A stretch of DNA of 64,000 nucleotides from positions 62,001-126,000 of the forward strand of contig JABVCK010000027.1 of the NCBI GenBank assembly GCA_013540605.1, written 5' to 3'. The notes beneath the pieces were generated by a model. That model saw nothing but the letters and a program-made list of their open reading frames with translations. It was not told the DNA's origin and ran no database searches. Position 1 is the first letter of the stretch, and each line of letters starts with the position of its first letter. Position numbers and translations under genes: made by a program. Shown one piece after another: positions 10,097-51,448 of the stretch. Origin of the DNA: Bacillota bacterium (lineage in GTDB: Bacteria; Bacillota; Clostridia; Ch29).

Positions 10097-10159
10097 ATTA
10101 CATGCCTCTCCTTTTGTCGTATTTTTTTGCTGCCCGGTCCCTTTTGTCCCTCCAATCAC

Positions 10160-10272
10160 TCAGAGGATTTGTTAGACCTCTTTCGGTAGCAGCTTACCGC
10201 AGGACTATCCGCCGAATTTTCGATAAGTCCCGGTCCTCGTCTACTCCTTTTCAAGGAGTACTGGCGCTTTAA
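10160..10272 (-). ncRNA. glmS ribozyme/riboswitch
   Basis: On the minus strand the leader contains AGCGCCAG just after the expected cleavage point, then GACGAGGACCGGG, TTATCGA and TTCGGCGGAT, the conserved core of the glmS self-cleaving ribozyme. P3- and P4-like hairpins follow (CGGTA..TACCG and AGAGG..CCTCT). Cleavage uses glucosamine-6-phosphate as cofactor and leads to mRNA decay. It ends about 60 nt before the glmS start. Confidence 0.93.
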
Positions 10273-10350
10273 CGTTTCTAAATTTATATTCTTTACACCA
10301 CCTCCCTACGCGGTTTTACACGGTTTTCCGGTTTATCACCCCCTTCCATC

Positions 10351-12183: not shown

Positions 12184-12207
12184 TAGATTTAAATTAATAG
12201 CATTTTC

Positions 12208-12318
12208 TCATCTAGAGAGGTGGAGGGACTGGCCCTGTGAAACCTCGGCAACCTTCAGATTTTCCTGAAAAGGTGCCAATTCCAGCAGCGGGAATGGATA
12301 CGCCCGCTGAAAGATGAG
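12208..12318 (+). ncRNA. SAM-I riboswitch (S-box)
   Basis: P1 is formed by CTCATCT (12208) and AGATGAG (12312). Between them is the canonical S-box core: AGAGGTGGAGGGACTGGCC, ATGAAACC-like TGTGAAACCTCGGCAACC, and GGTGCCAATTCCAGCAG. A terminator follows at 12353. High SAM should stop transcription before the homocysteine genes. The aptamer is nearly identical to the one at 18823-18928 on the other strand. Confidence 0.97.
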
Positions 12319-12352
12319 GGGGGTAAAGGTTAATCCAGTGAATATTTTGGAG

Positions 12353-18809: not shown

Positions 18810-18822
18810 TCTCTTTCAGCTC

Positions 18823-18928
18823 CTTATCTGTCAGAACGAAAGTTCTGCTGGAATTGGCACCTTTTCAGGGTAAACCTGAAGGTTGCCGAGGTTTCACAGG
18901 GCCAGTCCCTCCACCTTCTCTTGATAAG
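18823..18928 (-). ncRNA. SAM-I riboswitch (S-box) upstream of metH
   Basis: P1 from CTTATCA (18928-18922) and AGATAAG (18829-18823). The core reads AAGGTGGAGGGACTGGCC, TGTGAAACCTCGGCAACC and GGTGCCAATTCCAGCAG. It controls metH-metF and the activation-domain gene by transcription termination. Confidence 0.97.
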
Positions 18929-18964
18929 ATTTTATTCAGTTTTCGTTTTAGTATATCATATAGA

Positions 18965-42948: not shown

Positions 42949-42977
42949 TTGCAAGATACAAAATTTGATGATAAAAT
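42949..42977 (+). promoter_or_regulatory. Candidate promoter of the riboswitch-microprotein unit
   Basis: TTGCAA (42949-42954), 17-bp spacer, TAAAAT (42972-42977). The transcript would start about 20 nt before the c-di-GMP aptamer. Confidence 0.55.
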
Positions 42978-43003
42978 ATAGCTACACTAGAAAAATATAG
43001 AAA

Positions 43004-43104
43004 ATAGCAAACCCATTGAAAGATGGAGACGCAAAACCTCGGGTCTAAAAATAGTATCATATCTATGACGGCTTATCATATCTATGACGGCTGGGTTGCC
43101 TATC
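43004..43104 (+). ncRNA. Cyclic di-GMP-I (GEMM) riboswitch with an internal duplication
   Basis: P1 pairs ATAGCAA (43004) with TTGCCTAT (43096). Inside are the GEMM hallmarks: the GAAA-tetraloop hairpin (ACCCATTGAAAGATGG), ACGCAAA, CCTCGGGTCTAA and GGCTGGGTTGCC. The second hairpin arm contains a perfect 19-nt tandem duplication. A terminator follows 32 nt later and a small gene after that, so it should switch transcription of that gene in response to c-di-GMP. Confidence 0.85.
43055..43092 (+). repeat. 19-nt perfect tandem duplication inside the riboswitch
   Basis: TATCATATCTATGACGGCT occurs twice back to back (43055-43073 and 43074-43092). Confidence 0.95.
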
Positions 43105-43135
43105 AAATTGCTAAGACTTAATTGTTTAGTGCATT

Positions 43136-43173
43136 AAGAGTATTGTATGGCACCTTGCCCAATACTCTTTTTT
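43136..43173 (+). terminator. Riboswitch terminator
   Basis: A perfect 10-bp stem AAGAGTATTG / CAATACTCTT (43136-43145 with 43160-43169) followed by TTTTTT, between the c-di-GMP aptamer and the microprotein. Confidence 0.88.
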
Positions 43174-43200
43174 ATCCTAAAGACAAAGGAGGTAGTGCTG

Positions 43201-43299
43201 ATGACAAAATGGGGGAAAAAGGCTATACCGGTTCTTTTCTACCTGACAACATTGCTGTGCCTTGCGCTCTCCGGAGTAGCAATGCATAAGTGGGGATAG
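43201..43299 (+). CDS. Riboswitch-controlled 32-residue membrane microprotein
   Basis: A 32-codon reading frame beginning MTKWGKKAIPV, with one central hydrophobic helix (about residues 10-27, LFYLTTLLCLALSGVAM) between a positively charged N-terminus and HKWG at the end. AAAGGAGG lies 8 nt before the ATG, one of the best ribosome sites in the window, and a hairpin terminator follows within 40 nt. It is the only gene after the c-di-GMP riboswitch, so it is plausibly a real single-pass membrane peptide made in response to c-di-GMP. No known family is recognised. Confidence 0.65.
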   Translation: MTKWGKKAIPVLFYLTTLLCLALSGVAMHKWG

Positions 43300-43335
43300 G
43301 AGACCAGACTAGACGAGTATACATATTATTTCATT

Positions 43336-43359
43336 TAGCCCTTTGGGCTATTTTCTTTT
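43336..43359 (+). terminator. Terminator after the microprotein
   Basis: TAGCCC / GGGCTA stem with a TTT loop (43336-43341 with 43345-43350), followed by TTTTCTTTT. Confidence 0.75.
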
Positions 43360-43482
43360 GAAGTTATTTTGCGTAAAAATTGTATATTTCAAAGAACATA
43401 ATAGGAATAGAGAAGGAATTTGTTGATTCATAAAGAAATTTATAAAGAAATATAGATAAAAGTATTATAGCGGGGTAGAGAC

Positions 43483-44748
43483 ATGACAACAAAAGCAAAA
43501 AGAATGAGGGACATATATGTTTTTGTCATAGGCTTCAGTATAATCCCTGTTCTCATCCTCACAAAGCCGCACATACAGTTAAATGACATCCTCGAGATGC
43601 TGTTCTGGATTATATTGATTATTATCGCTGAGTTTAAACCGATAATGATACCCCGGTGGAACCAGATAAATGAGATCACTGTTTCCTTCGTGCCCCACCT
43701 GTCAGCTATCTTCCTAATCGGCCCGGATAAATCAACCTGGATTGCCGTTCTTGCTACATTGGTGGTTGAAGCAATATATCGGCGGGCATGGTATAAGGCT
43801 CTGTTTAACGCAGGGCAGTATGGGCTTACGGTTTATATCAGCGGTCTTGCTTTCTATTGGTTAAAATCCTCTCCGGGCGAGGCTTCATTGGATATCCTTG
43901 CGGATTTACCGGCGGTTCTACTGGCATCGAGCATATATATTTTTCTGAATACCTTTTTTATATCGACCGTAATATCCCTATCTTCGGGCAAAGGGCCCCT
44001 GGACATGCTTCCCGAAGACCTGAAATTTACTACAGGGTACTTTTACGCATTGGTTCCCATAAGTATTGTTATCTCAAAAATTTATTCCCACGAGTTCCCT
44101 TTTACAGTGTTAATAATGATACCCCCCCTGATGATGGCCGATTACGGGCTTAGAAAGTATTACAATCTGCACAAGGAAACCTATGAGACCCTGAATGTAC
44201 TGGCAAATATCATAGATGAAAGGGATAAGTATACAGCAGCTCATTCGTTGAGAGTCGCGCAGTATGCTAGAGAGATTTCAGCATCCCTAGGCTTACCCCA
44301 GGGTTTGATAAATGAGATAGAGACTGCAGGGCTGGTTCACGACCTCGGGAAAATTGGTGTCGAGGATAGAATACTAAGGAAAGAAGGAAAACTAACCGAA
44401 GAGGAATACTCTGAAATAAAGAAGCACCCGGAGATTGCGTATCGACTGCTTGCTACGCTTAAGCCATACAAGGAAGGCGCAAAATATGTTCTCTATCACC
44501 ACGAAAGAATGGATGGAAAAGGGTATCCCAGGGGACTATCGGGTAAATCCATACCTTTAGGTGCCAGAATTCTCGCGGTTGCGGACAGCTTTGATGCAAT
44601 GACTTCCAACCGGCCATACCGTAGCGCTCTGACAAAAAATAGTGCAGCGAAGGAATTAAGGAGGTGTTCGGGCACGCAGTTCGACCCTGATGTGGTTGAA
44701 GCCTTTATAAAAATACTGGAGAAGAGTTACGGCTGTGAGGAGGAATAA
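43483..44748 (+). CDS. HD-GYP domain phosphodiesterase, membrane-bound
   Basis: A 421-residue protein: N-terminal membrane region of about six helices (10-215, MASE-like) and a C-terminal HD-GYP domain (about 240-415) with HSLRVAQYA, VHDLGKIG, KKHPEIAYRLL and HHERMDGKGYPRGL, the complete metal-site signature. It probably hydrolyses c-di-GMP, fitting with the c-di-GMP riboswitch 400 bp upstream. ATG with GCGGGGTAGAGAC before it. The stop overlaps the start of the next gene by one base, so the two are co-translated. Confidence 0.9.
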   Translation: MTTKAKRMRDIYVFVIGFSIIPVLILTKPHIQLNDILEMLFWIILIIIAEFKPIMIPRWNQINEITVSFVPHLSAIFLIGPDKSTWIAVLATLVVEAIYRRAWYKALFNAGQYGLTVYISGLAFYWLKSSPGEASLDILADLPAVLLASSIYIFLNTFFISTVISLSSGKGPLDMLPEDLKFTTGYFYALVPISIVISKIYSHEFPFTVLIMIPPLMMADYGLRKYYNLHKETYETLNVLANIIDERDKYTAAHSLRVAQYAREISASLGLPQGLINEIETAGLVHDLGKIGVEDRILRKEGKLTEEEYSEIKKHPEIAYRLLATLKPYKEGAKYVLYHHERMDGKGYPRGLSGKSIPLGARILAVADSFDAMTSNRPYRSALTKNSAAKELRRCSGTQFDPDVVEAFIKILEKSYGCEEE

Positions 44749-45314
44749 TGTTTATTGTATTTTTCGTTGTTCTGTCTATTTTAATAGGCTTTTTGAGGGG
44801 CGGGAAATTATCGCATCTGATTAAAAAACCGCTTAAGTTCCAAATATTTGTTGTTCTTTCGTTCCTAATACAGATAGCAATCTTTTCAAAACTAGCTGAT
44901 ATGTCACATTTATCACGGTTTTCAATTATCTTCCTTCATGTCATCTCCTATGTTCTATTGTTGTTATTCACGCTCCTGAACTGGAAAATAGCCGGCATTC
45001 CAATTATTGGAACAGGGATACTGCTCAATGCAATTGCAATATTCAGCAATGGTGGCTATATGCCTGCCCTGGCAGATAACCTATTGAAAACCGCTGCCGG
45101 TAAAGGCTCCGAGGCGGTTGCCTATGGAGGCGCGGTGAACAATTCTATACAGATTACTGACAGTACAAGGTTCCCATGGCTGTGTGACATATTCGTACTA
45201 CCGTCCTGGCTGCCTTTTTCAAACGTCTTCAGCGTAGGTGATATAATAATTGCAGTCGGCGTGTCTATATACCTTGTCATTAACATGGGGCGAAAAAATC
45301 AGCCGAGGGCTTAG
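44748..45314 (+). CDS. DUF5317 family membrane protein
   Basis: A 188-residue protein with about five hydrophobic helices and the conserved GFLRGGKLSHL at residue 14, NGGYMPA near 105 and FPWLCDIFVLP near 140, as in DUF5317 proteins of Clostridia, often encoded next to HD-GYP or PAS signalling genes. Function unknown. Its ATG overlaps the HD-GYP stop (TAATG), so it is translationally coupled to it. The end overlaps the convergent mrp gene by 4 bp. Confidence 0.8.
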   Translation: MFIVFFVVLSILIGFLRGGKLSHLIKKPLKFQIFVVLSFLIQIAIFSKLADMSHLSRFSIIFLHVISYVLLLLFTLLNWKIAGIPIIGTGILLNAIAIFSNGGYMPALADNLLKTAAGKGSEAVAYGGAVNNSIQITDSTRFPWLCDIFVLPSWLPFSNVFSVGDIIIAVGVSIYLVINMGRKNQPRA

Positions 45315-51312: not shown

Positions 51313-51448
51313 TATGCAATAAAAAAGCGCATCCGGCGCTCCGCTATGGAACCCTAGGTTCCCTTCGGCGGTTGCTTCCGCAACCTGAGCACCTTCCTTA
51401 AACCGGCGGGGAACCTTTCCCCTGCACCTCTTCCTTTTTTTGTTGCAT
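51313..51448. repeat. 136-bp structured inverted-repeat element
   Basis: Bounded by TATGCAATAAAAAA (51313) and its inverted partner TTTTTTTGTTGCATA (ends 51448). The inside is GC-rich with many small hairpins: GCGCATCCGGCGC, GGAACCCTAGGTTCC, GGTTGCTTCCGCAACC, GGGGAACCTTTCCCC. An additional direct copy (TTATGCAACAAAAAAA) lies at 51465. It may be a small RNA with a hairpin and T-run at either end, or a non-autonomous repeat. No known RNA family is recognised. Confidence 0.5.

Follow-up and report, generated by a model that had tools for sequence, protein, structure and literature searches.

Small membrane subunits are known as a kind: MgrB (with PhoQ), KdpF, CydX and AcrZ are short single-helix proteins that are encoded with, or act on, a large membrane protein. 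The peptide described here is likewise a short single helix with a large membrane protein as its neighbor, but it shows no sequence relation to these proteins in Pfam or NCBIfam, and its putative partner is a cyclic-dinucleotide phosphodiesterase. The stressosome miniprotein Prli42, of about 31 residues, has a basic start and one helix that ends in a small-residue motif; the likeness to our peptide in size, start and helix end is a lead only, with no match in an NCBIfam search and different neighbors. Pheromone precursors of the RRNPP type (Phr, NprX) share with the peptide family a basic start, a hydrophobic stretch, a small-residue site and a short tail, but the hydrophobic part of the family is far more conserved, and its members adjoin a membrane enzyme instead of a cytoplasmic tetratricopeptide receptor. 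As far as databases and the open-access literature show, a putative subunit of this kind tied to nearly all MASE9-HD-GYP proteins of a phylum is new. The RNA in front of the peptide gene resembles GEMM-I (RF01051)/GEMM-Ib riboswitches in scoring above the gathering threshold and in having a terminator between aptamer and ribosome site, as in the transcription-controlling members; it differs by an A at position 20, by a 19-nt duplication and by standing before a micropeptide module that elsewhere has no riboswitch.

The locus lies in the window, by which we mean the whole stretch of 64,000 nucleotides of a Bacillota genome that was analysed; its features are collected in Table 1. The initial annotation had read positions 42949-43360 as a compact unit of promoter, c-di-GMP riboswitch, terminator, ribosome site, microprotein and second terminator, with the microprotein as its only product. 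Aptamer, ribosome site and first terminator, the last with a strong hairpin (folding z = -3.3), were all borne out, as was a real microprotein with a single hydrophobic helix behind the aptamer. The two ends of the unit stand less firmly. A promoter at its start is plausible, but the consensus scan counted six candidates of this kind, extended -10 TG included, where 2.5 +/- 1.6 were expected, and the match is no better than such a scan can yield by chance. The second terminator is weak by folding and by count (z = 0.2; one found against 0.6 expected), but in the four related loci of the window clade a hairpin and T run end the peptide gene at the same place. The microprotein need not be the only product, as transcription may read through into the HD-GYP gene, which starts 184 bp further on.

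Table 1. Features of the peptide locus and its downstream genes (window positions).
Feature	Position	Strand	Evidence
Candidate extended -10 promoter, TTGCAA-17-TAAAAT	42949-42977	+	9/12 consensus match
GEMM-I (RF01051) aptamer	42996-43103	+	65.6 bits against gathering 35
Specificity base A, not G (position 20, Vc2 numbering); A also in cGAMP-type GEMM-Ib aptamers	43006	+	Aptamer alignment
19-nt tandem duplication TATCATATCTATGACGGCT, P3 side of aptamer	43055-43092 (copies 43055-43073, 43074-43092)	+	Read from sequence
Expression-platform terminator AAGAGTATTG...CAATACTCTTTTTT	43136-43173	+	10-pair stem 43136-43169, then T6
Shine-Dalgarno AAAGGAGG	43185-43192	+	Read from sequence
Micropeptide gene MTKWGKKAIPVLFYLTTLLCLALSGVAMHKWG, 32 aa, KWG clade of LAGGA micropeptide family	43201-43299	+	ATG 43201, stop TAG 43297-43299
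Weak intrinsic terminator 3' of peptide gene, TAGCCC-TTT-GGGCTA and T-rich tail	43336-43350	+	Sequence scan
MASE9-HD-GYP protein gene, 421 aa, HD/HHE/GYP motifs intact	43483-44748	+	Pfam MASE9 1.2e-10, HD_5 7.9e-45
DUF5317 membrane protein gene, 188 aa, third in module	44748-45314	+	Pfam PF17248 3.8e-34

By its conservation, the 32-codon frame is a real coding gene, more than chance, because it has homologues in four other genomes and the closest set has a dN/dS of about 0.04. Homologues of 31 residues with 48-52% identity were found in three species of another family when 391 genomes of the class were searched, and a DNA pattern scan of a collection of 85,000 species returned these three and added a fourth, MKKWGKIIPVILQIAGIISLVLAGVAGWKWG; five genomes of the same bacterial family yielded no close homologue. 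Pairwise comparisons of the three closest homologues with one another sum to 8 non-synonymous changes at 203 sites and 37 synonymous changes at 67 sites, which gives the dN/dS above and indicates purifying selection; their frames are 78-88% identical against 50-64% in the flanks. Eight of nine peptide sets have dN/dS values of 0.04-0.33; the ninth, of three near-identical sequences, gives 0.69 and counts against. Homologues and dN/dS together rule out a chance frame. Loss of the frame from relatives had been named beforehand as a refuting result; the frame is kept in relatives, and the claim was not refuted. The initial peptide searches also gave weak matches, which make up most of L011-L035 and L082-L090; on reading, these proved to be unrelated frames.

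Surveys of the 391 genomes of the class and of 299 of the phylum, with DUF5317 as anchor, supplied 120 loci, of which 77 had a full MASE9-HD-GYP gene with at least 100 bp of sequence 5' of it and were counted. A hydrophobic peptide of 24-36 residues precedes the MASE9-HD-GYP gene in 76 of these 77 loci. An explicit motif rule captured 72 of them, and the other four, L231, L241, L264 and L276, in which the motif is slightly altered, were recognized by eye. In the HD-GYP tree, the one locus without such a peptide, L237, branches outside the clade. In all four loci with homologues of the window peptide, the next gene is MASE9-HD-GYP, followed by DUF5317. Elsewhere in the 1.05 Mb of the loci (both strands) only four motif frames were found, three of which precede another MASE9-like HD gene. 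A profile of the 25-residue form gave 22 matches at E < 5e-4 in 206 genomes. Wherever such a match was read or could be located by its coordinates, it belonged to the module, stood ahead of a MASE9-HD gene or fell at the end of a contig; weak matches outside (E 9e-4 and 9e-3) are inside long unrelated frames. The HD-GYP gene, which the initial annotation had correctly placed after the peptide gene, is no bystander, then, but rather the center of the module. Riboswitch plus peptide, the unit that had been proposed, is ruled out as a conserved one, with GEMM-I found by Rfam scans in 0 of 44 related module loci; what is kept is peptide plus MASE9-HD-GYP.

The peptide keeps its place before the sensor gene while operon order and output domain vary. 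In three loci (L285-L287) DUF5317 comes first, then the peptide (MKKVFFWLTVAAMVLAAIAKVPWH in L286) and then a MASE9-like HD protein, with an HATPase end in two of the three; in two others (L289, L290) DUF5317 is followed by a remote version of the peptide, of 34-36 residues (MKKFEGIKYSRIVINAIIVASVVVALTSGYKLGG), and then by a protein with GGDEF and HD-GYP domains, which in one of the two loci also has a weak MASE9 match. This constancy argues, as far as gene order can tell, that the link is to the MASE9 gene, and it speaks against a leader tied to a single operon. Peptide types also track the phylogeny of the enzyme: the window HD-GYP protein groups with those of L121, L123, L126 and L132 with a support of 1.0, and the same five carry KWG-ending peptides. 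A second, canonical copy of the module in the same genome (L168) has the peptide MARVIAALMSLMALVLAGGAAHNWH. MASE9 and DUF5317 are both present in Thermotoga maritima and Thermus composti. Two variants of layout were also seen: a STAS-like protein comes next after the MASE9-like HD protein in L286, and L254, L276 and L280 have a tandem MASE9-HD-GYP pair with one micropeptide before the first gene.

The peptide mostly lies 37-66 bp from the HD-GYP gene, with a range of about 20 to several hundred bp, but in the window clade the distance is at least 170 bp and a terminator stands between the two. The wide gap and the terminator loosen the operon argument in this clade; with a hairpin and T run in between, synthesis of the window-clade peptide can proceed independently of that of the enzyme.

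We call the peptides the LAGGA family, defined by a length of 24-36 aa, a basic N-terminus, one helix, an [AST]x[GVI]A motif, a short Trp-containing tail and a position upstream of a MASE9-HD gene. The consensus is MKKI..IL..ILSLVLAGGA...W, and the window peptide fits the definition as a member of a divergent clade (LSGVA-MHKWG). Searches of Pfam, NCBIfam and PHROGs gave weak matches only, none significant, and accessible papers described no such peptide, in agreement with the earlier statement that it belongs to no described family. Numbering backward from the last motif residue in 78 distinct peptides, with A, G, S, T and C counted as small, we found small residues at -15, -11, -8, -4 and -1 in 44, 82, 92, 96 and 100%, respectively, against 3-27% at -12, -10, -9, -7, -6 and -5. 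Spacing of the form 4-3-4-3 is typical of helices that pack closely in membranes, and the five positions would form a heptad packing face. Leu occupies -7 in 66/78 and -5 in 62/78, and Trp stands at tail position +4 in 47/78. In the window peptide, which AlphaFold2 models as one helix (residues 8-30), T17, C20, S24, G25 and A27 lie on the small face and W31 in the tail.

The reading that we favor, with a probability of roughly 0.6, is that the peptide crosses the membrane once and serves the neighboring MASE9-HD-GYP phosphodiesterase as an accessory subunit or a regulator, because of its presence in 76 of 77 loci, the association of motif frames with MASE9-HD genes, purifying selection and the small-residue face. 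It would then probably be the missing small subunit of a predicted c-di-GMP-destroying membrane enzyme. We infer that the basic N-terminus would stay cytoplasmic (N-in insertion), that the small-residue face with its AGGA/SGVA motif would pack on the membrane helices of MASE9 or on another copy of the peptide, and that the Trp tail would sit at the outer surface. Such packing could tune signal sensing or couple it to the HD-GYP domain, thereby lowering c-di-GMP (or cGAMP). The peptide had been put forward as a possible new c-di-GMP effector; it is better described as probably partnering a c-di-GMP phosphodiesterase in the membrane, as the analysis gave no sign that the peptide binds c-di-GMP.

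The enzyme itself looks intact. Its MASE9 domain (PF20972) scores 42.1 bits against a curated cut-off of 24.3, and the HD-GYP motifs HDLGK and HHERMDGKGYP are present, with key residues invariant in the clade. The nearest solved relatives of the HD-GYP protein are 5z7c, which is annotated as the cGAMP-specific phosphodiesterase 3, and 4mcw; its own structure model, built from a five-sequence alignment, is poor (mean pLDDT 54). The open-access literature yielded no paper on DUF5317 or on an HD-GYP micropeptide, and none on the MASE9 sensor domain or what it senses, the lone text match being a colorectal cancer review.

On present comparison the riboswitch is a local addition, peculiar to this genome's locus, and its ligand cannot be assumed to be c-di-GMP, as the initial annotation had taken it to be, because its specificity position 20 is an A. 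Window position 43006 corresponds to position 20 of Vc2, directly 5' of the G21-C46 pair (numbering in part after PMC6274999). Of the 33 GEMM-I aptamers of this bacterial family, the other 32 have a G there. Replacing an A by G at this position of a Geobacter aptamer switches selectivity from cGAMP to c-di-GMP (PMC6456294), and the structure of a cGAMP riboswitch has an A at the same position (PMC6274999). The window aptamer is also the lowest-scoring of nine GEMM-I aptamers in this genome, and its 19-nt duplication falls within a 23-nt insert of the aptamer alignment. It may prefer cGAMP, bind both dinucleotides or be decaying, and we give a little less than even odds to its being a 3',3'-cGAMP or mixed cyclic-dinucleotide sensor, or a decaying one, instead of a c-di-GMP sensor. 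The likeness of the enzyme to 5z7c fits, but weakly, since 5z7c may be nearest merely because few HD-GYP structures exist. On the other side, the c-di-GMP-type Asp is retained by every one of the five GGDEF domains seen in about 38% of the genome, with none of the Hypr type among them and no cGAMP synthase found there. A ligand of either kind is compatible with the peptide as partner of the enzyme, and the A20 aptamer offers a natural test of a change in riboswitch specificity.

From folding energies alone, we would weakly suggest an OFF switch, in which ligand binding favors termination. Equilibrium folding puts the terminator at a probability of about 0.98 whether the aptamer is enforced or not and does not separate ON from OFF. 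In folds of growing transcripts that end near 43156-43162, a helix forms between the aptamer 3' strand GGGUUGCC and the GGCACC of the terminator loop, which keeps part of the terminator 5' strand away; GGGUUGCC-GGCACC would be the antiterminator without ligand. Placed between promoter and peptide, in this genome only, the GEMM-I element would add cyclic-dinucleotide feedback on the peptide, and readthrough might extend it to the phosphodiesterase.

The peptide helix resembles a signal peptide, and an unlikely alternative to a membrane partner is a pre-pheromone, from which signal peptidase, cutting after [AG]xGA, would free a tail of 4-5 residues (MHKWG here) to be sensed by MASE9 or by a distant receptor. 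All 78 peptides have small residues at -3 and -1, and the tail after the motif has exactly five residues in 60/78 and four in 11/78, but its length ranges from 4 to 10, and its residues vary. Between 2 and 6 of 37 members match NCBIfam models of NprX and Phr precursors (E 8e-4 to 0.04; best values 0.0012 for NprX and 8e-4 for Phr_nterm), but such weak matches would suit many short signal-like sequences; the window peptide gave none and adjoins no cognate Rap/NprR receptor. The hydrophobic part is over-conserved for a signal peptide, and a packing face with a small-residue heptad is not expected in one that is disposable. It is distinctly improbable that the family amounts to phylum-wide peptide signaling into cyclic-dinucleotide control, in which a cut signal of 4-5 residues would be read by MASE9, cell density or envelope state would set HD-GYP activity, and, in this genome, a cGAMP-type riboswitch would close the loop by acting on synthesis of the peptide.

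It is quite unlikely that the HD-GYP gene is controlled, through coupling or attenuation, by translation of the frame as such and not by the peptide made from it. A distance of 37-66 bp in most members would suit such a cis-acting leader, as would the terminator that separates frame and HD-GYP gene in the window clade; however, amino-acid conservation across the phylum goes beyond what coupling needs, the spacing is too variable (about 20 to several hundred bp), and the packing face is left unexplained. A type I-like toxin or generic membrane-stress peptide, here by accident, is highly improbable despite the short, hydrophobic sequence and basic N-terminus, given that in many bacterial families the peptide goes almost one to one with the same family of enzymes, and that no antisense RNA family was found at the window locus.

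If the peptide is the membrane partner that we propose, its reach is considerable: HD-GYP phosphodiesterases that carry a membrane sensor domain occur widely, and, should nearly every MASE9-HD-GYP protein of the phylum have this unannotated peptide of 24-36 residues, these enzymes may have been studied minus a subunit. The module would provide a direct handle on the tuning of a membrane sensor. Reading raw sequence and combining it with synteny can expose micropeptides that gene callers skip.

Several further RNA elements were noted. In two genomes of the same bacterial family (L040 in G002 and L041 in G005), a GEMM-I element lies shortly before a gene for a 55-residue membrane protein of the YvrJ family (PF12841), a pairing of riboswitch and small membrane protein in relatives that involves a known family. 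Two near-identical GEMM-I copies, including their flanks, occur on two contigs (C1 and C35) of the window's own genome (L003, L004), and the L004 copy has an inserted stretch within a sigma-factor-like gene. The window also holds a Clostridiales-2 RNA (RF02937, 75.3 bits) at 51358-51439 (-), two SAM riboswitches at 12205-12320 (+) and 18821-18930 (-), and a glmS ribozyme at 10124-10279 (-).
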